DNA of 64,000 nt, from the NCBI GenBank assembly GCA_026707945.1, contig JAPOVV010000105.1, positions 1 to 64,000 of the forward strand, given 5' to 3'. The stretch comes from Gammaproteobacteria bacterium (GTDB lineage: Bacteria; Pseudomonadota; Gammaproteobacteria; Pseudomonadales; Azotimanducaceae). Position 1 is the stretch's first letter; each line of letters begins with the position of its first letter. The notes under the pieces are model-generated. The model was not told the origin of the DNA. It worked only from the letters and a program-made list of their open reading frames with translations, and did no database searches. Shown piece by piece: positions 4,395-53,359 of the stretch. A program made the translations under genes and the position numbers.

Positions 4395-5051
4395 ATGGAA
4401 CAGATAAAGCTTCAATTCGAACGGTTCACCGAAAAAGAAATGATCGAACGCGGTCAGGCATTTCGAGCGCTCATGGTCCGACGAAGAACGGTACGAGACT
4501 TCGACGATCGTCCCATTCCTACTGGTGTCCTAGAAGACGCACTTCGGGTCGCAGCATCTGCGCCGAGCGGTGCGAACCGACAGCCGTGGCGTTTCGTCAT
4601 CGTAGAAGATCCGGAGACCAAAGCTCGCATAAGAGTCGCAGCTGAAAAGGAAGAGCAAGAGTTCTACTCCACACGCGCACCCGACGATTGGCTTGAAGCA
4701 CTCGAACCGCTTGGTACTGACGCAAATAAACCATTTCTAACAGAAGCGCCTGCGTTGATTGCGATCTTTCTCGAAAGGTTCGGCATCGATGAAGATGGAA
4801 AGCGAATTAAGAACTACTACATGGGCGAATCTGTCGGTATCGCGACTGGATTTCTAATTTCTGCCCTGCATCAGGTCGGACTAGCGACGTTAACCCATAC
4901 ACCTAGTCCGATGCGATTCTTAAATGAGATTCTGAATCGTCCGGCGCGCGAAAGGCCTTATCTATTGCTCGTTGTTGGTTATCCGAAGGTCGGCGCAATG
5001 GTTCCTGCAATTGAACGACTTCCTTTTGACACGGTCGTGACCAAAGTTTGA
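4395..5051 (+). CDS. Nitroreductase-superfamily flavoprotein, iodotyrosine deiodinase-like
   Basis: A 218-residue protein counted from the ATG at 4395; a TTG directly before it is an alternative start. Positions below count from that TTG. The FMN-binding SGANRQPW is at 59-66. Compared from memory with human iodotyrosine deiodinase, the substrate-clamping triad Glu157/Tyr161/Lys182 has equivalents at Glu88, Tyr92 and Lys113 with identical spacing (4 and 21). The HTPSP loop (169-173), LNRPARERPYLLL and VVGYP also follow that family closely. Characterised members reductively dehalogenate halotyrosines using FMN. Dehalogenation here is inference. It stands alone, convergent with the PhyH gene at 5100. 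No obvious ribosome site. Confidence 0.75.
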   Translation: MEQIKLQFERFTEKEMIERGQAFRALMVRRRTVRDFDDRPIPTGVLEDALRVAASAPSGANRQPWRFVIVEDPETKARIRVAAEKEEQEFYSTRAPDDWLEALEPLGTDANKPFLTEAPALIAIFLERFGIDEDGKRIKNYYMGESVGIATGFLISALHQVGLATLTHTPSPMRFLNEILNRPARERPYLLLVVGYPKVGAMVPAIERLPFDTVVTKV

Positions 5052-5099
5052 TCCGGGTGAGTGGAGTTTTGAAATTCGTCCGGCTTAATTCAAGCTGAA

Positions 5100-6095
5100 C
5101 TAGATACTCCAATCGTCCCACATGTTGGTCGATGTCGGAGCAGGGTCCTCTCGGAAATGTCGTGTATCGACCCACCACTGGTGTTTGCTTCCGGGTCCTA
5201 GATCATCGTCGTCATAAAACGTGTAACCAGGTTTTTGGAAATCGCAGGGTATGGCGTAACGAATAAGCGAAGCATTAAGTTCGGCTGAGTAGTTCACACC
5301 CGCAGAATGAATCAATCGCGGGTGCCAGAACACCACATCGCCAGCTTCGCCAACAAATTCGACGGGAACAATGTCCCTCAAGATCGCCTTGAATTCTTCG
5401 TCGAACTCGTTCTTTATTCGCTGATTGAAATGCGCCCCCTGACAAGATGTCCAATATCGATGCAGCCGCGCGTGTGAACCAGGCCAAACCGTAAAGCCAC
5501 CAGTACGAGGCGGTATTTCGTCAATCAGAACCATCGCGCTTAATTGAGCGGCTGAGTGATCCACATGTGGACCTAACCGACCTTCTACCGAAGGTGATTT
5601 GGGCAGTACAACATATACTCCTCGAACGCGCTCCGCTCGTTCTAGTCGCTCACCTAGAAATTGCTTGACCACAGCGCGCACCCGGGGATGGTTGGCCGTG
5701 ACCTTCAGCAGCGATTCCTCTCGGCCGTACCGATGTGGCGAGCGCATTTTCCAAGCGGAGTGTTGAAGTACTCCAATCCGAGCCGCCGCGCCTATCGGCC
5801 AACGCTCGTGGGGCTCGTCAACCCACGACGTAGGATCCTCGCGGGACATTACGCCCTCAGGTACGGTTTCCCAAACGTAGTCGACGATTGCCTTGAACTC
5901 TTCGCTAGCCGGTACTAGCCCGCGTTTGACTAAGAATCCCTCGCGTTTGAAATGTTCAACTTCCGTCTGTGAAAGCTGTAGATCTGCGCTACCTAGCAGA
6001 TCAGCTTTGTATGGCACCGGTTCTCGAATGGTTCTGTCTCTATCCAACTCGGTTTTGTGCGCCGTTTCTGCATCGAAAGGCGGACGCGTCTTCAC
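5100..6095 (-). CDS. Phytanoyl-CoA dioxygenase (PhyH) family protein
   Basis: About 331 residues from a GTG at 6095. The frame is open further up to 6260, but that would run into the divergent thioesterase gene, and a TTG at 6047 is a third option. The PhyH core begins at LSQTEVEHFKREGFLV. Iron ligands are visible as HVD in GRLGPHVDHSAAQ and a distal His in FWHPRLIHSAG, with Arg in NASLIRYAIP as the 2-oxoglutarate partner. TGGFTVWPGSH is the usual strand before the distal motif. The long polar N-terminal stretch is less conserved. Divergent from tesB-like gene 6147 with about 50 bases between starts, so the two may share a promoter region. Confidence 0.8.
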   Translation of the reverse strand: MKTRPPFDAETAHKTELDRDRTIREPVPYKADLLGSADLQLSQTEVEHFKREGFLVKRGLVPASEEFKAIVDYVWETVPEGVMSREDPTSWVDEPHERWPIGAAARIGVLQHSAWKMRSPHRYGREESLLKVTANHPRVRAVVKQFLGERLERAERVRGVYVVLPKSPSVEGRLGPHVDHSAAQLSAMVLIDEIPPRTGGFTVWPGSHARLHRYWTSCQGAHFNQRIKNEFDEEFKAILRDIVPVEFVGEAGDVVFWHPRLIHSAGVNYSAELNASLIRYAIPCDFQKPGYTFYDDDDLGPGSKHQWWVDTRHFREDPAPTSTNMWDDWSI

Positions 6096-6146
6096 CTCAA
6101 GCCTATCATATCGCGCTTCAAGAAGACTACGACGCGGCAAATCTCG

Positions 6147-6986
6147 ATGCCTCGGTTTGACGATGTGATCGGTCTCGAGCGTACTGCCGATGATCGTTAC
6201 ATAGGCGCTAAGAGCCCCGATCAAGCTGAACGAATGTTCGGTGGCTTTCTTATCGGTCAAGCACTAGCTGCGTGCCGCTATACGATCGAGTCTGACCGAT
6301 CCGTACATTCTTTGCATTGCTACTTTCTAAGACCTGGTGACACAAACCAGCCGGTCGAATACACCGTAGCAAGGATTAGAGACGGTCGAAGCTTTTCGCA
6401 CCGTCAAGTCATCGCGACACAGAACGGCAAAGAAGTATTTCGAATGGTTTGCTCCTACGCGATTACATCTGAGAGTCCGACTTTTGTCGGCGGCGTTGCA
6501 CCGAGCGTACCGCAACCCGAAGAAGTGGACTACACCTATGAGGATTTCTGTAGAGAGCAGATGCCTAATCCTGATTACGTACGGGACGTTAAGAAGCGAC
6601 CGTTCGAAATCAAGTACATTAACCCACCAACTCGCTTCGAACCAAGTGACACTCTAGAAAACCAGCTCATGTGGATGAGGTTAAACTGCGACGTGTCTGA
6701 GGATCCCCACGTACATGACATCGGCGTCGCGTATCTCTCCGACAGCACCTTGATAGACCATATCACGTTACCTCACGGTAAGCGATGGCATGACTCGGAT
6801 TTCGACGGTACGAGTTTGGACCACGCCATGTGGTTTCATCAGACCGTCCGCTCTGACGAGTGGTTGCTGTTCGATCAGAAAGTTGAGTGGACCGGCGACG
6901 GTCGTGGCATGGCGTCTGGACGGATCTATACCGAAAACGGTACGCTCGCGGCGACATGCATGCAAGAGGGTCTAATGCGTTTTTAA
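6147..6986 (+). CDS. tesB: Acyl-CoA thioesterase II (TesB-type double hotdog)
   Basis: About 279 residues from the ATG at 6147; the frame is open upstream but homology begins at FDDVIGLERTADDRYIG. The segment AERMFGGFLIGQALAAC is the N-terminal hotdog signature, followed by LHCYFLRPGDTNQPVEYTV and RDGRSFSHRQVIATQNG, which are hallmark TesB stretches. The C-terminal hotdog has SLDHAMWFH and a MASGRIYTENGTLAATCMQEGLMR ending. Members hydrolyse medium- and long-chain acyl-CoA to free acid and CoA in the cytoplasm. It lies between a PhyH dioxygenase and an LLM oxidoreductase, fitting side-chain or branched acyl-CoA turnover. The symbol follows family membership only. Confidence 0.88.
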   Translation: MPRFDDVIGLERTADDRYIGAKSPDQAERMFGGFLIGQALAACRYTIESDRSVHSLHCYFLRPGDTNQPVEYTVARIRDGRSFSHRQVIATQNGKEVFRMVCSYAITSESPTFVGGVAPSVPQPEEVDYTYEDFCREQMPNPDYVRDVKKRPFEIKYINPPTRFEPSDTLENQLMWMRLNCDVSEDPHVHDIGVAYLSDSTLIDHITLPHGKRWHDSDFDGTSLDHAMWFHQTVRSDEWLLFDQKVEWTGDGRGMASGRIYTENGTLAATCMQEGLMRF

Positions 6987-7059
6987 ACGTATGGAGCAAG
7001 TCAGAAAATGAACAATTCAAAAAATACCAAACAAATCAAACTAATATGAGGGAATCTTC

Positions 7060-8064
7060 ATGAAACTGAGTTTGGGCGTCGGTCCGATGGGTCCACCCGG
7101 TGGCAACATGATTATCGAGCACGCGAAGTTTGCGGAGAGTCTTGGATATGACACGATTTGGACGTCAGAAATCTACGGCTCCGATTGCTTTACCCCACTC
7201 GCATGGATAGGAGCAAACACGGAGCGGATCAATCTCGGAACTTCGATCATGCAAATCTCGGCGCGGTCCCCTGCGAGCGCCACTATGCATGCGGTAACGT
7301 TGGACTATCTGTCAAACGGGCGGATGAAATTAGGAATAGGTGTCTCCGGTCCGCAAGTCGTGGAAGGTTGGTATGGCCAACCGTATCCCAAACCACTGGC
7401 AAGAACACGAGAGTGGATATCGATTTTCCGCGATATCGTGTCTAGAGAGGGACCCGTTTCCTTTGACGGGAAGCACTATCAATTGCCGCTGGATGGAGGT
7501 ACGGGATTAGGTAAACCGCTAAAGCTCATCTTGCATCCAGTGCGTGAAGAGATTCCTTTGTATCTAGGTGCTGAAGGACCGAAGAATGTCGCGCTTGGTG
7601 CAGAACTATGCGACGGCTGGATTCCTATGTTTCTATCTCCCTATCGTATGGACATGCTCTACGGCGAGTCGCTCAAGCACAAACGGTCGGACTTTGACAT
7701 CTGCGCGCCCGTCACTGTCATCGTAACAGACGATATTCAGAGTGGCATCGATTCGGTAAAACAGAATGTTGGGTTTTATGTCGGTGGTATGGGCGCGAAG
7801 TCGTTCAACGTGCACAAAGATCACATCTCCAGAATGGGATTTGAAGATGAAGCGAATCACGTTCAGGAGCTCTTTATGAATGGACGACGCGATGAAGCGA
7901 TGGCGGCCGTACCTAACGAGCTATGTGATGAGATATCGCTCATCGGACCGAAGGAGCGCATCCGCGAGAGACTAGCAGCATGGCGAGAAAGCGCTGTTAC
8001 GACGATAAACGTCTCAACAGGCAATCGTGATACCTTGGCGTTTATGGCGGAAGAGTTGCTCTAA
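7060..8064 (+). CDS. LLM class flavin/F420-dependent oxidoreductase
   Basis: A 334-residue luciferase-like monooxygenase fold protein. MKLSLGVGPMGPPGG, the AESLGYDTIWTSEIYGSD strand-helix and LGTSIMQISARSPASATMHAVTLDYLSNGRMKLGIG are typical of the F420/FMN-dependent LLM class. IPLYLGAEGPKNVALGAELCDGW marks the C-terminal cofactor-phosphate region. GAGGGA sits six bases before the ATG. It follows tesB after 73 bases on the same strand and may be co-transcribed. Whether it uses F420 or FMN cannot be told from the sequence. One of five LLM genes in this window. Confidence 0.83.
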   Translation: MKLSLGVGPMGPPGGNMIIEHAKFAESLGYDTIWTSEIYGSDCFTPLAWIGANTERINLGTSIMQISARSPASATMHAVTLDYLSNGRMKLGIGVSGPQVVEGWYGQPYPKPLARTREWISIFRDIVSREGPVSFDGKHYQLPLDGGTGLGKPLKLILHPVREEIPLYLGAEGPKNVALGAELCDGWIPMFLSPYRMDMLYGESLKHKRSDFDICAPVTVIVTDDIQSGIDSVKQNVGFYVGGMGAKSFNVHKDHISRMGFEDEANHVQELFMNGRRDEAMAAVPNELCDEISLIGPKERIRERLAAWRESAVTTINVSTGNRDTLAFMAEELL

Positions 8065-42909: not shown

Positions 42910-42951
42910 AAGTAGTATTTCGCCCTCGCATTTTGGTTCTTGGAGACATGT

Positions 42952-44592
42952 ATGTCACATGACATAGTAATCCGCGGCGGCGAAATCGTCGACGGTTCTG
43001 GTACTGCTGCATTTCACGGCGATCTCGCCATTGACGACGGCCTGATATCGGCTGTAGGCAAAGTCGACGGCAAAGGAGAACGTGAAATCGACGCGACCGA
43101 CCATGTCGTTAGCCCCGGATTTGTCGATCTTCATACGCACCTTGATGCGCAGATTGGCTGGGATCCTTTACTGACACCCGTTAGTTGGCACGGCGTGACT
43201 ACTGCGCTTATGGGTAACTGCGGTGTGACATTCGCGCCATGTAAGCCGACTGACCAAGAGCTACTTGCTGGCATGATGGAGACCGTTGAGGACATTCCAA
43301 AACATGCGATCCTTACGGGTCTGCCTTGGGACTGGGAAGACTATGGCGGCTATCTCGATGCACTCGAACGGTTGAATCCAGCTGTAAACGTCGCGGGTAT
43401 GGTGGGACACTGTGCTGTGAGGTTCTATGTAATGGGCGAACGCGCCGTTGAAGAACAAGCCTCGGACGACGAATTGAAGCAGATGGCCGAAGTCGTTGGC
43501 AATTCACTAGATAAAGGCGCGATCGGCTTCTCAACCAATCGCTATCCGCCTCACAAGCTCCCGGACGGTCGTTCCATCCCAGGTACATTTGCTGATCCTA
43601 AAGAGCTTGTTGCGATTGCAGAGGCGGTAGGACCTCGCAATGGTCTTATGCAAGCCGTTGGCGCAGACTTTGATGTTCTGAGGAAGATCAGTGATACGAC
43701 CAACGGTCGCGTCCTGTTCAGCTATGGTACGGGTCCCCAGGAAGGCTCTGGCGAAACCCAAGCTAAGCATCTTGCTCGACTGTGCGAAGGTCGCGACATT
43801 ACCGCGATCACGCAGGTACGCGGTTCCGGATTCATGTTCGGATTACAGTCCAACTTGCCTGTTCAAGGTGAAACTTGGGCGAAAGTTCGCGAAATGGATC
43901 TACAACGTCGTCTTAATGCGATTAACGATCCAGACACTCGCGCGAAGTTGATTGAAGAAGGCAAGGCAATCAATTCACGATTCCCACTAAATAACGTCTA
44001 CTACCTAGGACACGGCGACGTACCAAACTACGCTGCTGGTCCAGAGGCGAGTTTACAGAGTATGTCCGAACAGGCCGGCGAGCATTGGGTTGAGACCTTT
44101 ATCCGCGTCTCGCAAGAAAGCAACGGCAGAGGTTTGTTCAACCTTCGCATGTTCAATCAAAGCTTGAAGGAACTCGGTGACCTGTTCAAGAGCGAGCACT
44201 GCTTCCCGAGTCTTGGCGATGCGGGCGCTCACGTTTCACAAATCATGGATGCAGGTTGGGCGAGCTTCACAGTAGCACATTGGATTCGAGAAACCGGCTT
44301 GTATACGCTCGAGGAAGGTATCCGTCGCTTGACGTCAGGACCTGCACGGGTCCTCGGATTGAACGATCGTGGCACGCTTAAGGAAGGCATGCGAGCAGAC
44401 GTAAACGTTTTTGACCTATCTAAAGTCGCAGAACGGCAACCTGAACTCGTCCACGACTTCCCGGGCGGTGCGCCTCGGTACATACAGAAGTCATTTGGCT
44501 ACAAGACGACAATCGTCAACGGTCAAGTGAGTCTCGAAGACGGCGAACATACTGGCGTAAGAGCTGGTACCGTTCTTCGACATCAAGCTTAA
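42952..44592 (+). CDS. D-aminoacylase-like amidohydrolase family protein (paralog 2)
   Basis: About 546 residues from the ATG at 42952 with GGAG six bases upstream. SHDIVIRGGEIVDGSG, FVDLHTHLDAQ, NCGVTFAPC and LGDAGAHVSQIMD follow the D-aminoacylase-like plan. Where paralog 1 has TQVHSR this protein has TQVRGSG, so one candidate metal-ligand His is absent. The family removes N-acyl groups or opens cyclic amides. It follows an LLM gene and ends at a strong terminator. Confidence 0.87.
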   Translation: MSHDIVIRGGEIVDGSGTAAFHGDLAIDDGLISAVGKVDGKGEREIDATDHVVSPGFVDLHTHLDAQIGWDPLLTPVSWHGVTTALMGNCGVTFAPCKPTDQELLAGMMETVEDIPKHAILTGLPWDWEDYGGYLDALERLNPAVNVAGMVGHCAVRFYVMGERAVEEQASDDELKQMAEVVGNSLDKGAIGFSTNRYPPHKLPDGRSIPGTFADPKELVAIAEAVGPRNGLMQAVGADFDVLRKISDTTNGRVLFSYGTGPQEGSGETQAKHLARLCEGRDITAITQVRGSGFMFGLQSNLPVQGETWAKVREMDLQRRLNAINDPDTRAKLIEEGKAINSRFPLNNVYYLGHGDVPNYAAGPEASLQSMSEQAGEHWVETFIRVSQESNGRGLFNLRMFNQSLKELGDLFKSEHCFPSLGDAGAHVSQIMDAGWASFTVAHWIRETGLYTLEEGIRRLTSGPARVLGLNDRGTLKEGMRADVNVFDLSKVAERQPELVHDFPGGAPRYIQKSFGYKTTIVNGQVSLEDGEHTGVRAGTVLRHQA

Positions 44593-47170: not shown

Positions 47171-47736
47171 CTAGCTACTGATGGCAGGATCACTGCAATC
47201 TCGTTGTTACGTTAAGACACACCTTCACCATTGACCGTAAGTACTCGTTTATGACGTCTTCCCGAATAGCGTTGAGCCACAAGTAATGTCCCAACTTACG
47301 AGCGTTCTGCGAAAGCTATCTGCAATTCAGTATTAATAGTCAACTGTAAAAATACTTAGGTACTGCGTCTTAGTTAGGCGAGCAGAAGGGTATGAAAGTT
47401 TTCGCTCAAGCCAAATTGCAGAGCGAACGAGTAGACCCCGACACCTCTCTTCAACCTATAGAAACCTATAGAAAAAATCGTAGTTTCAGTGTCGATTCGC
47501 CGTCACCTACCCGCGTACGCTGAGTTTTTTCGTTCCCATAGCGCATAGAGAACGAGCAAGAGAGTGAAAGCACTTTTTAACGTAGTCCGATCGGCTGTGC
47601 TAAACCCACCCGACCCAAATCATATTTGACGCCGAGGATCTGCTGCTGTGTGATTGCAGACCTACCCGACAATGTTCAAATCAAGGTCTAATATATAGGC
47701 GACGTTATTGTCGTACAACGATCCAATTTCACGAAC
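47171..47736. other. 566-base intergenic region
   Basis: No gene or tRNA is recognisable. The stretch lies upstream of the haloperoxidase fusion and probably holds its promoter and leader. A perfect 10-base tandem repeat (see 47453) is the only clear structure. Confidence 0.5.
47453..47472. repeat. Two tandem copies of AACCTATAGA
   Basis: The decamer AACCTATAGA occurs twice head to tail with no mismatch, followed by a short A-run. It may be a regulator-binding pair about 270 bases upstream of the haloperoxidase fusion gene. Confidence 0.6.
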
Positions 47737-50700
47737 TTGATATCGTACGCGAGCACGCTTCAAACCGTTGCTAAACACTGCGCGTATCTAGGCAATGCTT
47801 TCCTATTCCTACTTCTTGCGAGTTGTGGTAGTGGGGATTCCTCGCCGCAATCCATCACGTCACCACCCTCAGTACCTGAACCTGAAGCTTCACCTCGTGA
47901 AGGACTCTGGTTTGAAAGAGACCCATCTACTTTTTGGTATCGAGCGATTGAAGAATCTGCCGCAGGTTTAGTTGGAGGTGGGGTCGCCGCCGCCGACTAT
48001 GACAACGATGGCGATATCGACTTCTACGTCGTCGGCGGTGAGATCGATCCGAGCCATCTATACGAAAATAAAGGCAATGGAACGTTCGTTGAACGAGCCG
48101 TTCTCGTAGGACTAGCTATAGACGGATGGTACAGTGGTCCTGCATTTGGTGATATCGATTCAGATGGCGATCTAGATCTCTTTGTCAGTGGGATCGATGA
48201 CACCGAACCGCGTCTTTTCGAAAATCGTATGAAAGATTCGATCGGCCGGTTTGTGGATATTACGGCTGAGTCCGGTCTCGACATAACCGCTCGAAACACG
48301 GTATCCGCGACGTTCTACGACTATGACAATGACGGTTGGCTTGATCTAGCCACGACGCACTGGAATAGCCTCAACCCGGGTGCAGATACACAAACCTTGT
48401 GGCGAAATACTGGCAACGGAAGATTCATTGCGGCGACCCTATCGAGTGGTCTTAGTGGCGCATTACTTGAAGGAGATATCGACTTCACCTTCACCGCGAA
48501 CTTCACAGACCTCGACAATGACGGTGATGGTGATCTTCTAATGGCGGCTGACTATGACGAGAGTCAAGTTCTTCGCAACAACGGTGACGGAACATTTTCA
48601 AACATCACCGACAAGCGAATCATCATCGATCAAGCAGGTATGGGTGCAGCGGTCGGTGATTTCGATAACGACGGCGACATGGACTGGTTCGTTACATCGA
48701 TCTACAACATAGATGAAAACGGGACTTACTTCGGTAACCGCATGTATCAGAACGATGGAAGCGGTGTATTTGCCGATGTGACTATAGGGGTCGCTGACGG
48801 AGGATGGGGTTGGGGTGCTTGTGCCGCCGACTTCGATAACGATGGCGCTTTAGATATAGCCCAAACGAATGGTTGGCTCGTCGAGGGACGATGGGACTAC
48901 AGTGCGGACAACGTTCGATTTTTCCATAACATCGATCCATCAAATCTTCGGTTTGAAGAACGTGCCATCGATATTGGTTTCAACAACGTCTCGCAAGGTC
49001 GAGGAATTGCTTGTTTTGACATGAATCGCGATGGGAAACAAGACATAGTGCTAACGAATAACGCCGCAGACAACGTGGTCGTTTTTCGCAATAGGACAAG
49101 AAACACCAATCACTATGTTTCGATCCGGCTAAACGGTCGGTATCCAAATCATTTCGGTGTAGGTTCCAGAGTCATCGCCACAACCGAAGCGCTCTCTCAG
49201 ATAAGAGAGCTCGGCGGATCGAACAATTACGCGTCACATAATCCATACGAGGTCCACTTCGGGTTAGGCAACGAAACTCGCGTCGATATTCGAGTGATTT
49301 GGCCCGACGGTGCTGAAAGCGAAGTGCTCCAAGCGCCGGTCGATCGTCTCATCACGATTGATCAGCCACCGCCAGTTAATCGTCTCTCCGTGTCACGCGG
49401 GGTTGGTGGCGGAACTTACGCCGCCGGTGAGTCCGTCAGAATCGAAGCAGGACCCTCCGAAGAAGGCTACTACTTTTCACATTGGCGGAGTGACAATGGT
49501 GGTTCGTTTACGAATGCATTTGCGCCTTCGACGTATTTCACGATGCCTCAAGGTAGTGTGACCGTCGTAGCAAACTATCTGCCGGGTGTAGCTGCTGACG
49601 CTTCTGTATCTGTTGCACGTCGTTGGAACGAAGTACTACTAGAAGCTATCCGAAATGATTACGCCAGACCAACGGTTCATGCACGCAACCTCTTCCACTT
49701 TTCCGCAGCCGTCTACGATGCGTGGACGCTCTATGACACCACAGCAACACCTTGGTTGTTCGGTAAAGAACGATCTGGCTATTTTTGTCGATCGGACACG
49801 ATTGAGCCAATCGCGGATCTGAGGCGCGCAAGGGAGGAAGCGATTAGTCACGCCGCAAAGATGCTCCTCAAGCACAGATTTGCACAATCGCCTGGCGCAG
49901 CACAAACGCTACGCGATATCAACACGCTGATGCAGTTTTTAGGTTTCGACGTCGAAGACGATGAATTGGAGAACGGTTCCCCCTCTGCTTTAGGCCGACT
50001 TATCGGTCGTTGCTTTATCGAGTTTGGCTTTGTCGATGGAGCTAATGAAGAGCAAGACTATGGAAATAAAAACTACACACCAGTCAATCAACCACTAAAA
50101 CCGCACGAGCCAGGTAATCCTTCGATCACCGATTTGAATCGGTGGCAACCACTATCCCTACGCGAATTCGTCGACCAAGCTGGGAATCCGAGCGGTTCGA
50201 CACCAAGTTTTTTAAGTCCCGAGTGGGGGAGCGTAGTACCGTTCGCGCTGTCAGGTGACGATCTCAAAATATATCAACGCGACGGGCATGACTACTGGGT
50301 GTATCACGACCCGGGACGGCCGCCGATGATCGACGGTGAAGGTAGCGCGAATTACAAATGGTCACATTCATTAGTCGCGATTTGGTCCTCTCATTTAGAT
50401 CCGAGTGATGGCGTACTTTGGGATATCTCACCCGCTTCGATCGGAAATATCGACGAATATCCATCAAGATTTGAAGACCACAGGAATTTCTTTAAAACTG
50501 ACGGAGGAGACGGCAGCAGAGGTTATGTCGAAAACCCTATAACACGTGAAGCGTACAACGCTCAATTGGTACCGCGCGGTGACTATACGCGAGCGCTCGC
50601 GGAATTCTGGGCCGACGGTCCAGACTCGGAGACTCCACCGGGGCACTGGTTCGTGATACTAAACGAAGTGAACGATCACCCATTGTTAACAAGACGGTTC

Positions 50701-51441
50701 CAAGGCCAAGGCGAACCACTCAGCCTCCTTGAATGGGATGTGAAGGCTTACTTTACGTTAGGTGGCGCAATGCACGACGCCGCAATAACCGCTTGGGGGA
50801 TCAAAGGGTGGTATGACTATGTAAGACCGATTTCCGCTATACGCGCAATGGCGGACCGAGGTCAGAGTAGCGATCCAAATCTAGAGTCGTTTCACGAACT
50901 TGGCATCCCTCTAAGCAAAGACTTCATCGAATTAGTCAGCGCCGCCGATCCACTAGCGGGTGAAAATGGCGAACACGTCGGAAAAATCAAGCTGCTTGCG
51001 TGGCGCAACCCAGAGAGTATCGAAGATCCTGCGACAGATGTTGCGGGTGTTGGATGGATTCTCGCCGAAAATTGGTGGCCGTACCAGCGACCTACTTTCG
51101 TGACGCCGCCCTTTGCAGGATATGTGTCAGGCCATTCAACGTACTCGAGAGCCGCTGCCGAAGTGTTGTCCGCAATTACAGGGAGTGCATTTTTCCCAGG
51201 CGGTATGAGCGATTTTCAGATTAAGGCAGGAGAGTTTCTGGTATTTGAGGACGGTCCGTCAGTGGATTTAGTCCTTCAATGGGCGACGTATCGAGACGCT
51301 GCCGACCAGTGCAGCCTGTCGAGAATTTGGGGAGGAATTCACCCGCCAGCGGATGACCTGCCCGGGCGTCAAATTGGTTTTGAAGTCGGAAACGATGCGT
51401 TTAACGCTGCACTTGGCTTCTTCAGCGGCGAATTAGAGTGA
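47737..51441 (+). CDS. FG-GAP/ASPIC/vanadium-haloperoxidase fusion lipoprotein
   Basis: A 1234-residue lipoprotein starting at TTG. Residues 1-30 are a signal with lipobox LLASC, placing it in the periplasm or outer membrane. FG-GAP/VCBS calcium-binding repeats (DYDNDGDIDF style) fill about 80-450, an ASPIC/UnbV domain about 458-543 and a small beta-repeat about 550-615. From about 620 the vanadium haloperoxidase fold follows, with all expected vanadate ligands: Lys1023 and Arg1030 (KGWYDYVRP, spacing 7), Ser1131-Gly1132-His1133 (YVSGH), and Arg1196 with His1202 (SRIWGGIH). It would oxidise halides with H2O2. Whether it halogenates or acts as a phosphatase is not decided. Confidence 0.9.
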   Translation: MISYASTLQTVAKHCAYLGNAFLFLLLASCGSGDSSPQSITSPPSVPEPEASPREGLWFERDPSTFWYRAIEESAAGLVGGGVAAADYDNDGDIDFYVVGGEIDPSHLYENKGNGTFVERAVLVGLAIDGWYSGPAFGDIDSDGDLDLFVSGIDDTEPRLFENRMKDSIGRFVDITAESGLDITARNTVSATFYDYDNDGWLDLATTHWNSLNPGADTQTLWRNTGNGRFIAATLSSGLSGALLEGDIDFTFTANFTDLDNDGDGDLLMAADYDESQVLRNNGDGTFSNITDKRIIIDQAGMGAAVGDFDNDGDMDWFVTSIYNIDENGTYFGNRMYQNDGSGVFADVTIGVADGGWGWGACAADFDNDGALDIAQTNGWLVEGRWDYSADNVRFFHNIDPSNLRFEERAIDIGFNNVSQGRGIACFDMNRDGKQDIVLTNNAADNVVVFRNRTRNTNHYVSIRLNGRYPNHFGVGSRVIATTEALSQIRELGGSNNYASHNPYEVHFGLGNETRVDIRVIWPDGAESEVLQAPVDRLITIDQPPPVNRLSVSRGVGGGTYAAGESVRIEAGPSEEGYYFSHWRSDNGGSFTNAFAPSTYFTMPQGSVTVVANYLPGVAADASVSVARRWNEVLLEAIRNDYARPTVHARNLFHFSAAVYDAWTLYDTTATPWLFGKERSGYFCRSDTIEPIADLRRAREEAISHAAKMLLKHRFAQSPGAAQTLRDINTLMQFLGFDVEDDELENGSPSALGRLIGRCFIEFGFVDGANEEQDYGNKNYTPVNQPLKPHEPGNPSITDLNRWQPLSLREFVDQAGNPSGSTPSFLSPEWGSVVPFALSGDDLKIYQRDGHDYWVYHDPGRPPMIDGEGSANYKWSHSLVAIWSSHLDPSDGVLWDISPASIGNIDEYPSRFEDHRNFFKTDGGDGSRGYVENPITREAYNAQLVPRGDYTRALAEFWADGPDSETPPGHWFVILNEVNDHPLLTRRFQGQGEPLSLLEWDVKAYFTLGGAMHDAAITAWGIKGWYDYVRPISAIRAMADRGQSSDPNLESFHELGIPLSKDFIELVSAADPLAGENGEHVGKIKLLAWRNPESIEDPATDVAGVGWILAENWWPYQRPTFVTPPFAGYVSGHSTYSRAAAEVLSAITGSAFFPGGMSDFQIKAGEFLVFEDGPSVDLVLQWATYRDAADQCSLSRIWGGIHPPADDLPGRQIGFEVGNDAFNAALGFFSGELE

Positions 51442-51670: not shown

Positions 51671-53359
51671 ATGGCACACGATCTAGTAATACGTGACGGC
51701 GTGATCGTCGATGGATTAGGAAACGAGCCATTTCGTGGTGATGTTGCAATCGATGGCGACAAGATTTCCGAAATAGGCAAGGTTCCGTCGCGTGGAACGA
51801 AAGAGATCAACGCTGACGACAACCTTGTGACACCAGGTTTCGTCGACATTCACACACACCTTGATGCCCAATTTGGATGGGATCCGCTAGGCACGTCATC
51901 CTGCTATCACGGCATTACTTCGGTTGTACTCGGGAACTGCGGCGTCACGTTCGCACCATGCAAGCCAAAGGATCGGGAGTACTTAGCGGAATTGATGGAA
52001 TCGGTCGAGGACATTCCGCGGGAGTCTATTCTCGAAGGCTTGACCTGGGATTGGGAAACCTACGGGGAGTATCTAGAGGCGTTGGATCGCCTACCCAAAG
52101 GTATCAATGTCGGAGGCATGGTTGGTCACTGCGCGGTTCGATACGCCGCGATGGGAGAACGAAGTCTAGACGAAACTCCTGCCGGAGGCGACGATATTGA
52201 GCGCATGTGTGAGCTCGTCGATGAAGCGATCAGCTCAGGCGCACTTGGGTTCTCGACGTCGCGTACATTTCTTCATAGAGTTCCCGATGGACGTCCGGTG
52301 CCGGGTACATATGCTCAGCCCGAAGAACTACTAGCTATTGGACGAGTCCTAGGTAAGTACCAACGCGGCGTGTTCGAAGCTGCCGCGCGCCTCGGCGAGC
52401 GAGATGCACCAGACTTGCCGAACACCCGGAAAGAAGTTGCATGGATGGGCGAGCTTTCGCGCGAAAACGGAATAAACGTTACGTTTGGTCTTGCTCACAG
52501 CGAACGTCGAGAGACGCTCTACCAATCAGTCGTCGAATTCGCTTCAGAAGAAAATGCCAAAGGCGCACGATTACGCCCGCAGACGACGTCTCGCCCAATT
52601 GGAAGTCTCTACAGTCTCCATAACCGAACGATGTTCGACCGATCAGAACCGTGGCGTGACCTCAAGAACAAGAACTTCGGTGCCCGACTTGAAGCGATGC
52701 GCGACGCCTATACCCGTGAGCGATTAGTCGAAAGCGTTGACTTTGAACAAATCGATCTCGACTTTGACAGACTATACGTGCTCACACCCAACCGTGTGCG
52801 TTATGACATGCAGCCGAAAGACTCGTTGGGGCACATCGCACGAGAACGACAAGAATCAGTGGTCGAAGCTTTCATTAATCTCAATCTGGAAACTAATGGC
52901 CGAGTGGTCTTCTACTACGCATTCCTTAACCAACGCCTGGATCCGATCGAGTACATGATGAACCAGCCGGTAGTTGCAATGGGTTTAGCCGACTCTGGTG
53001 CACACGTTGGACAGATCATGGATGCGAGCCAACCAACATGGTTGTTGTCGTACTGGGTACGCGAACGACAAATGCTCACGATTGAAGACGCCATTCGACG
53101 CTGGACTTCCGATACCGCGAATCTATTTGGGATCAAGAACCGCGGCCGTCTAGAGGTTGGGGCGTGTGCGGATCTAAACGTCATCGATCTAGAAAATCTA
53201 GGAATGGACGTACCAACATACCAGTACGACTTCCCAGGTGGCGCGGGTAGATATGTCCAACGAGCCCAAGGATTCAAATATACGATCGTGAATGGCAAGC
53301 ACTTTCTGACGGACGGAGTTCACACAGGTGAGCTCGCCGGTGTCACTCTGCGAAGCTAG
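51671..53359 (+). CDS. D-aminoacylase-like amidohydrolase family protein (paralog 3)
   Basis: A 562-residue protein: MAHDLVIRDGVIVDGLG, FVDIHTHLDAQFGWDP, NCGVTFAPC, FGLAHSERRE and LADSGAHVGQIMD follow the family. Where paralog 1 has QVHSR this copy reads PQTTSRP, so metal ligation differs among the three. C-terminal GACADLNVIDLENLG is the conserved beta-sandwich closure. Start supported by MAHD homology. The PhyH gene begins 17 bases after its stop, so the two are probably co-expressed. Confidence 0.88.
   Translation: MAHDLVIRDGVIVDGLGNEPFRGDVAIDGDKISEIGKVPSRGTKEINADDNLVTPGFVDIHTHLDAQFGWDPLGTSSCYHGITSVVLGNCGVTFAPCKPKDREYLAELMESVEDIPRESILEGLTWDWETYGEYLEALDRLPKGINVGGMVGHCAVRYAAMGERSLDETPAGGDDIERMCELVDEAISSGALGFSTSRTFLHRVPDGRPVPGTYAQPEELLAIGRVLGKYQRGVFEAAARLGERDAPDLPNTRKEVAWMGELSRENGINVTFGLAHSERRETLYQSVVEFASEENAKGARLRPQTTSRPIGSLYSLHNRTMFDRSEPWRDLKNKNFGARLEAMRDAYTRERLVESVDFEQIDLDFDRLYVLTPNRVRYDMQPKDSLGHIARERQESVVEAFINLNLETNGRVVFYYAFLNQRLDPIEYMMNQPVVAMGLADSGAHVGQIMDASQPTWLLSYWVRERQMLTIEDAIRRWTSDTANLFGIKNRGRLEVGACADLNVIDLENLGMDVPTYQYDFPGGAGRYVQRAQGFKYTIVNGKHFLTDGVHTGELAGVTLRS

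Follow-up and report, generated by a model that had tools for sequence, protein, structure and literature searches.

A predicted lipoprotein joining a CRTAC1-like propeller to an intact-looking vanadium haloperoxidase in a gammaproteobacterium and its relatives

We analyzed a 64,000-nucleotide stretch of DNA from a gammaproteobacterium of the family Azotimanducaceae (assembly GCA_026707945.1, contig JAPOVV010000105.1, positions 1 to 64,000; hereafter the window), which contains a gene for a predicted lipoprotein that combines an FG-GAP/ASPIC propeller with a vanadium haloperoxidase (VHPO). The open reading frame runs from a TTG to a TGA codon over 1234 residues with no stop inside the frame (Table 1). 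Pfam matches over the curated cut-offs were obtained for FG-GAP_3 (E 7e-38, in five stretches), UnbV_ASPIC (residues 474-539, E 1.5e-14), Flg_new_2 (E 4e-11, a divergent InlB B-repeat), DUF6851 (residues 657-805, E 4e-10) and VCPO_2nd (E 1.1e-6), and an NCBIfam scan of the reading frame gave only one match, at E 0.69 and far under its cut-off. The ratio of nonsynonymous to synonymous substitution (dN/dS) against four orthologues was 0.04-0.08 in both halves, with dS near saturation in some pairs, which indicates that both halves of the protein are under strong constraint.

Table 1. Position and basis of the propeller-VHPO gene, its domains and motifs, and the upstream intergenic stretch (window coordinates; aa, residues)
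Feature	Position	Strand	Basis
Whole reading frame: lipoprotein propeller-ASPIC-linker-VHPO, 1234 aa	47737..51441	+	reading frame and Pfam; full-length open frames in 13/18 genus genomes
Signal peptide and lipobox LASC, lipidated Cys30, +2 Gly	47737..47826	+	pattern only
FG-GAP propeller and ASPIC/UnbV domain, aa 56-545	47902..49371	+	Pfam; best PDB match CRTAC1 9etn
InlB-type B-repeat linker (Flg_new_2), aa 557-614	49405..49578	+	Pfam
VHPO domain, two helical bundles, aa 621-1234	49597..51438	+	Pfam, model, Foldseek
Motif W1020-x2-K1023-x6-R1030	50794..50826	+	W, K, R invariant in 87/87 aligned domains
Motif F1126 ... S1131-G-H1133	51112..51135	+	S, G, H invariant in 87/87; F1126 in 86, one ambiguous
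Motif R1196-x5-H1202, His the expected axial vanadate ligand	51322..51342	+	R, H invariant in 87/87
Intergenic stretch; occupied by a TonB-dependent receptor gene at the orthologous loci of genomes G001 and G010	47171..47736	.	no receptor trace in window

Relatives were collected by scanning genome contigs with the VHPO half; the best 79 loci were kept, the true total being higher, and four loci from a class-wide search brought the set to 83 loci with 86 VHPO genes (L numbers denote loci and G numbers genomes, G000 being the window's own). The predicted vanadate-site residues are Lys1023, Arg1030, Ser1131, His1133, Arg1196 and His1202, exactly as numbered in the original prediction. The canonical spacing claimed for them holds inside each motif (K-x6-R, S-G-H and R-x5-H, with Asp1206 four residues after His1202) but not between motifs: Arg1030 and Ser1131 are 101 residues apart, where the fungal enzyme has about 42 (judged by R360 and H404 in PDB structure titles), and motifs 1 and 2 lie about 50 residues further apart than in PDB 9l8x. 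Across the alignment of all 86 genes plus the window, the K, R, S, G, H, R and H residues and a Trp three positions before the Lys were identical in 87/87 sequences. An AlphaFold2 model of the VHPO half with 69 aligned sequences (alignment A1, 68 of the best 79 loci plus the window) reached a mean predicted local distance difference score (pLDDT) of 87.9 and a predicted template-modelling score (pTM) of 0.92, and displayed the two helical bundles of the VHPO fold instead of the single bundle of PAP2 acid phosphatases. All 17 Foldseek matches of this half in the PDB at E <= 0.001 were VHPOs, including NapH1, NapH3 and XhnO11 (template-modelling (TM) score by target 0.70-0.74; NapH3 0.72-0.74), Curvularia chloroperoxidase and Zobellia iodoperoxidase, and algal and cyanobacterial VHPOs followed at E 0.017 and weaker. 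With all vanadate-site residues present, the VHPO looks catalytically intact. Furthermore, its S-G-H His and its Trp resemble those of enzymes such as Curvularia chloroperoxidase; a Trp three residues before the Lys is reported for the chlorinating C. inaequalis enzyme and for that of A. nodosum in the available text of PMC11871015. Since the same paper holds that no single residue accounts for halogen specificity, a preference for chloride, bromide or iodide is not predicted here.

The N-terminal half carries seven DxDxDG-type calcium loops, starting at residues 87, 139, 195, 258, 308, 365 and 428, from which we infer seven propeller blades. In 44 full-length proteins, the window's included, Asp positions 1, 3 and 4 of the loops were nearly invariant and the second Asp position varied, most in the last loop. 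With its FG-GAP blades, calcium loops and UnbV_ASPIC domain, this half belongs to the CRTAC1-like type, and in a model of the mature protein (1200 residues) it was well predicted, with CRTAC1 (9etn) as best PDB match (TM score by target 0.71). The lipobox LASC-G occupies residues 27-31, with Cys30 followed by a non-Asp residue at +2, as judged by pattern only. By the +2 rule, Gly after the lipidated Cys marks an outer-membrane type of lipoprotein. Of the fused relatives, 44 had a complete 5' end, and 27 of these had a lipobox under the strict rule; under a looser rule it was present in all 11 split VHPOs and in 9 of 26 stand-alone VHPOs. Both stand-alone Bacteroidota proteins scanned (L066 and L085) bear a Por_Secre_tail sorting domain; the latter, a Saprospiraceae VHPO (L085, 5929-9045), also has five Cu-binding_MopE stretches. 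Together, lipobox, Pfam matches, model and the 87/87 ligands bear out the claim of a lipoprotein-type protein in which an FG-GAP/ASPIC propeller and an intact-looking VHPO are combined.

The same domain order, for which a search across genomes had been proposed, recurred among the relatives. Among the 86 related VHPO genes, 48 were fused to a propeller, 11 lay beside a separate propeller gene and 27 had no propeller in their flanks; several of the last group are near the end of their stretch (e.g. L022, L043, L074, L118, L120 and L121), so a propeller neighbor may have been lost from view. The earlier statement that haloperoxidases are usually stand-alone suits the characterized enzymes tabulated in PMC8407142 but not the fused relatives found here. 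The adjacent separate propellers were 36-55% identical to that of the window, compared to 25-31% for six other ASPIC proteins of the window's genome. In a quickly built tree of the 87 domains, with long branches and a midpoint root for drawing only, the outside positions were taken by stand-alone genes from Bacteroidota, KSB1, Calditrichota and Gemmatimonadota; nearer came the adjacent pairs found in Colwelliaceae and Alteromonadaceae, along with Woeseiaceae genes, most of them stand-alone. One branch of 54 rows held 48 of the 49 fused rows together with five split pairs and the contig-end-cut gene L022; the remaining fused gene, L119, sat elsewhere on a long branch. The label 'fused' requires four changes on this tree, three of them forced by well-supported branches. 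This pattern is compatible with a partnership that preceded fusion and was followed by re-splitting, an order that the tree does not prove.

Within the genus, a match was found in 15 of 18 genomes, 13 of which had full-length open frames of 1247-1303 residues and two (G011 and G014) only partial ones. Matches at E <= 0.001, some only partial, were present in 20 of 58 relatives; a draw of 369 genomes from the class gave nine at E <= 1e-20 (the window's own genome, four long and four partial), and in a draw of 398 from the phylum the window's own genome alone matched at E <= 1e-40. One split gene set belongs to a named strain, Cognaticolwellia mytili KCTC 52417 (L079), and a 1879-residue version in an assembly titled Halioglobus japonicus (L029, 2206-7845) has Y_Y_Y matches, the best of them between ASPIC and the B-repeat. 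Five same-genus genomes had two or more copies in tandem. Tandem propeller-VHPO genes occur at L126-L131 and L156 (contigs of G005, G002, G008, G009, G012 and G014; L156 holds just a partial one), among proteins of about 1170 residues with an apparently membrane-spanning start; of two such proteins scanned with Pfam, one had no match and the other matched Golvesin_C just under the cut-off. Many of the close loci belong to bins labelled COS, RHO, IRC and APA, names that agree with those of the sponges Coscinoderma, Rhopaloeides, Ircinia and Aplysina in PMC8163846; the relatives, and by extension the window's organism, are possibly sponge-associated.

We also analyzed the genes flanking the relatives. 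The neighbor clusters listed were the 25 largest, many of them shadow frames, and the other recurring clusters were scanned in part; the recurrent neighbor identified was a TonB-dependent receptor (with Pfam plug and barrel domains in L016, L030 and L063, and the barrel in L064). A refined receptor profile, built from gammaproteobacterial receptors and therefore liable to miss the SusC types of Bacteroidota, detected a receptor within the flanks covered for 20 of the 48 fused and 7 of the 11 adjacent genes but for none of the 27 stand-alone ones, i.e. 27/59 propeller-bearing relatives versus 0/27. The corresponding Fisher p of 3e-6 ignores kinship, and L034 and L035 are near-copies. An earlier, narrower profile had given 20 fused, 4 adjacent and 1 stand-alone, the last being a weak 159-residue fragment 5.3 kb away. 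In ten fused loci (L010, L011, L024, L027, L030, L034, L035, L047, L071 and L081) the receptor gene shares the strand of the fused gene and either overlaps it or ends within 170 bp on its upstream side. As receptor genes number about 30 in the window's 3.8-Mb genome (31 matches exceeded the cut-off, two of them in one frame), chance adjacency should be rare, by a binomial estimate that assumes 3500 genes and 31 receptors and ignores kinship. The description of the FG-GAP/ASPIC part as sensor-like found no support: the Pfam scan found no signalling domain in the reading frame, and the recurrent neighbor identified is a TonB-dependent receptor, in a comparison where regulators were not searched systematically.

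Genes of the flavin-halogenase family PF04820 were found in 4 of 106 loci scanned, some of which overlap. The Colwelliaceae loci L064 and L079 run from receptor through PF04820 gene and propeller lipoprotein to VHPO lipoprotein, the L079 receptor being recognized by the refined profile alone, with no Pfam match; in L126 and L154, from the window's genus, the PF04820 gene adjoins the propeller gene. These genes (L064, 2467-4038; L079, 2541-4085; L126, 1168-2439; L154, 5304-6578) come from two distant groups, and membership of PF04820 is no proof of halogenation. Elsewhere in the window's genome, four ASPIC/FG-GAP proteins cluster with TPR-repeat proteins and a long TonB-dependent receptor (L149-L150, G000:C72, about 111-134 kb), and another ASPIC gene (L147, 7975-12635, G000:C7) is followed on the same strand, after 122 bp, by a TonB-dependent receptor gene.

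At the window's own locus, gene order upstream was kept in four same-genus genomes and downstream in three of those four. The G001 orthologue has an apparently complete receptor of 916 residues upstream, and the receptor gene upstream of the G010 orthologue (L133, about 4900-7562) seems frame-broken near its 5' end; none lies there in the window, G016 or G017. A receptor-gene remnant in the window was rejected, as tblastn with three receptors as queries found none at E 0.01, and the L010 receptor had only partial matches in the window's genome, the best at E 7e-15 over 116 residues. Given the receptors beside the G001 and G010 orthologues, a linked receptor gene may once have been present at the window's locus and then lost. 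Ten neighboring genes were scanned with Pfam: nine matched metabolic or general enzymes (luciferase-like, two amidohydrolases, aldo/keto reductase, GTP cyclohydrolase I, metallophosphatase, alpha/beta hydrolase, TauD dioxygenase and enoyl-CoA hydratase) and one had no match, and a biosynthetic cluster around the gene was rejected on these grounds. Two Amidohydro_3 genes (42940-44592 and 51671-53359) flank the propeller-VHPO gene, the first of them three genes away. A promoter scan returned one site against a mean of 4.2 in shuffled sequences, i.e. fewer, and a tRNA scan found none; both were uninformative.

The conserved propeller-VHPO is probably anchored at the cell surface. On balance we favor the view that it is a surface-anchored, outer-membrane-type lipoprotein whose propeller docks or captures, in relatives often together with a TonB-dependent receptor. 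At the surface, the VHPO would bind vanadate and convert hydrogen peroxide and halide into hypohalous acid or an enzyme-held equivalent, which would in turn halogenate or oxidize nearby organic molecules. Since Pfam detects no signalling domain there and the recurrent neighbor identified is a receptor, capture, docking or uptake seems a better fit than sensing. Of the roles put forward in the original prediction, defense and quorum quenching may apply. More tentatively, the propeller might be a docking or capture module for TonB-dependent receptors, in the manner of BtuG on BtuB, and docking might couple surface chemistry to uptake. As the linked receptor gene is missing in the window, the protein encoded there would either work by itself or rely on a receptor whose gene lies elsewhere.

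Several observations weigh against this view. The spacing between motifs is unusual, and the vanadate site was judged only by sequence and by fold-level matches. NapH3, a close fold match, catalyzes a rearrangement according to its PDB title, so fold and site are no proof of halogenation. The full-length model was poor in the VHPO half (pTM 0.52 overall) and says little on how the halves are placed relative to each other. The strict lipobox rule failed in 17 of the 44 fused relatives, among which array copies seem to begin with a membrane-spanning-like hydrophobic stretch, a few look to have ordinary signal peptides and some have doubtful starts. No receptor was present in the flanks examined of 32 of the 59 propeller-bearing relatives, and the receptor counts ignore kinship. 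Finally, the window's locus has no linked TonB-dependent receptor gene, and no obvious hydrogen peroxide source or halogenation pathway was seen among the ten scanned neighbors.

The foremost alternative, which we consider doubtful yet worth weighing, is a surface enzyme for defense or antifouling, in which the propeller would be only an anchor or adhesin, free hypohalite would kill or repel competitors or break signals, and the receptor neighbor would be coincidental or serve other uptake. VHPOs mostly release free hypohalous acid (PMC8407142) and non-selective VHPOs are described as antifouling (PMC8407465), in the available text of both; the window's locus lacks a receptor gene, and the tandem copies in five same-genus genomes would fit dosage. 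However, receptor linkage was seen only with propeller-bearing genes (kinship again ignored), and the same-strand gaps in the ten fused loci are very short. An improbable alternative is a non-halogenating VHPO homologue resembling NapH3, whose pocket would convert a captured molecule in some other way: NapH3 ranks with the closest folds, and a substrate pocket could be shaped by the extra residues that separate motifs 1 and 2, but the S-G-H His is kept throughout the 87 sequences where the aligned XhnO11 has Ser. A PAP2-type surface phosphatase, hydrolyzing phosphate esters at the same site, appears still less probable. The site is common to acid phosphatases and fungal vanadium chloroperoxidase (VCPO) shows phosphatase activity (available text of PMC4859513; PDB 3bb0 title); yet the model has two bundles, as VHPOs do, versus one in the acid phosphatase of PMC4859513, an acid phosphatase was matched by Foldseek only at E 2 over 109 columns, and the PAP2 Pfam profile reached only E 0.2, under its cut-off. 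A one-off fusion of two genes by assembly or gene calling, for which the 117-contig draft gives an opening, was rejected and has a negligible chance of being right, given 48 fused genes, nearly all on contigs of separate assemblies, and full-length frames in 13 of 18 genus genomes with no stop inside any listed match.

A bolder version of the favored view, which we regard as speculative and rather unlikely, is a TonB-linked halogenating surface machine of marine Gammaproteobacteria, in which a propeller lipoprotein with its own VHPO caps or feeds the receptor and molecules are halogenated, dehalogenated or oxidatively trimmed at the transporter's mouth before import. Were it true, redox chemistry would be built into a lipoprotein-assisted transporter outside Bacteroidota; two Colwelliaceae loci have a flavin-halogenase-family gene in the same run as well, and some, possibly sponge-associated, bacteria would hold the system in tandem copies. 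The combination of a gammaproteobacterial VHPO, a CRTAC1-like propeller and an anchor signal, often with a TonB-dependent receptor gene close by, would place hypohalite chemistry where nutrient uptake or contact occurs, and provides a concrete protein for probing bacterial surface halogenation and the role of ASPIC propellers.

In the literature searched, which left out most subscription journals and so does not prove the architecture unpublished, no paper joined vanadium haloperoxidase with FG-GAP, or haloperoxidase with CRTAC1, and among the top-ranked entries no title or opening of an abstract dealt with such a fusion. NapH1, NapH3 and XhnO11 (PDB 3w35/3w36, 8cxl and 9l8x), the best Foldseek matches, share the two-bundle VHPO fold, and their K/R and R/H motifs align with those of the window's protein, but their PDB chains (459-531 residues) have no propeller and identity in the Foldseek alignments is 16-18%; XhnO11 differs further in the Ser noted above. 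The Zobellia galactanivorans iodoperoxidase (4cit/4usz) and the Curvularia inaequalis VCPO (1vnc) both match the VHPO half by fold, and 4cit also has S-G-H preceded by PPF, W-x2-K and R-x5-H. Both are single enzymes, of 458 and 609 residues, with neither propeller nor ASPIC, and the bacterial VHPOs tabulated in PMC8407142, the source of these lengths, are likewise single enzymes, about 460-640 residues long. Larger proteins with an internal match to VHPO-type profiles were a Rhizobium Ig-like protein of 2581 residues and an 827-residue Rhodobacteraceae 'calcium-binding protein', at 26-29% identity; the Rhizobium VHPO profiles are under the cut-offs, and in the Rhodobacteraceae protein Pfam matches nothing in the first 310 or so residues. 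The Rhizobium gene (L163, 3211-10956) lies on a plasmid of Rhizobium beringeri; it encodes bacterial Ig-like domains, and its VHPO-like stretch is weak. CRTAC1 shares the propeller and ASPIC domain, 9etn coming first in the sequence comparison and, with the full-length model, in the fold comparison too; its solved chain (551-586 residues) spans both, and CRTAC1 is not known to have an enzyme domain. BtuG, a surface lipoprotein with a seven-bladed propeller, covers the TonB-dependent transporter BtuB as a lid, and capped transporters seem exclusive to Bacteroidetes according to PMC10404256. As a possible parallel to the BtuG-BtuB and SusCD systems, 27/59 propeller-bearing relatives have a TonB-dependent receptor gene in their flanks; the window's locus has no linked receptor, and the propeller itself bears an oxidative enzyme.

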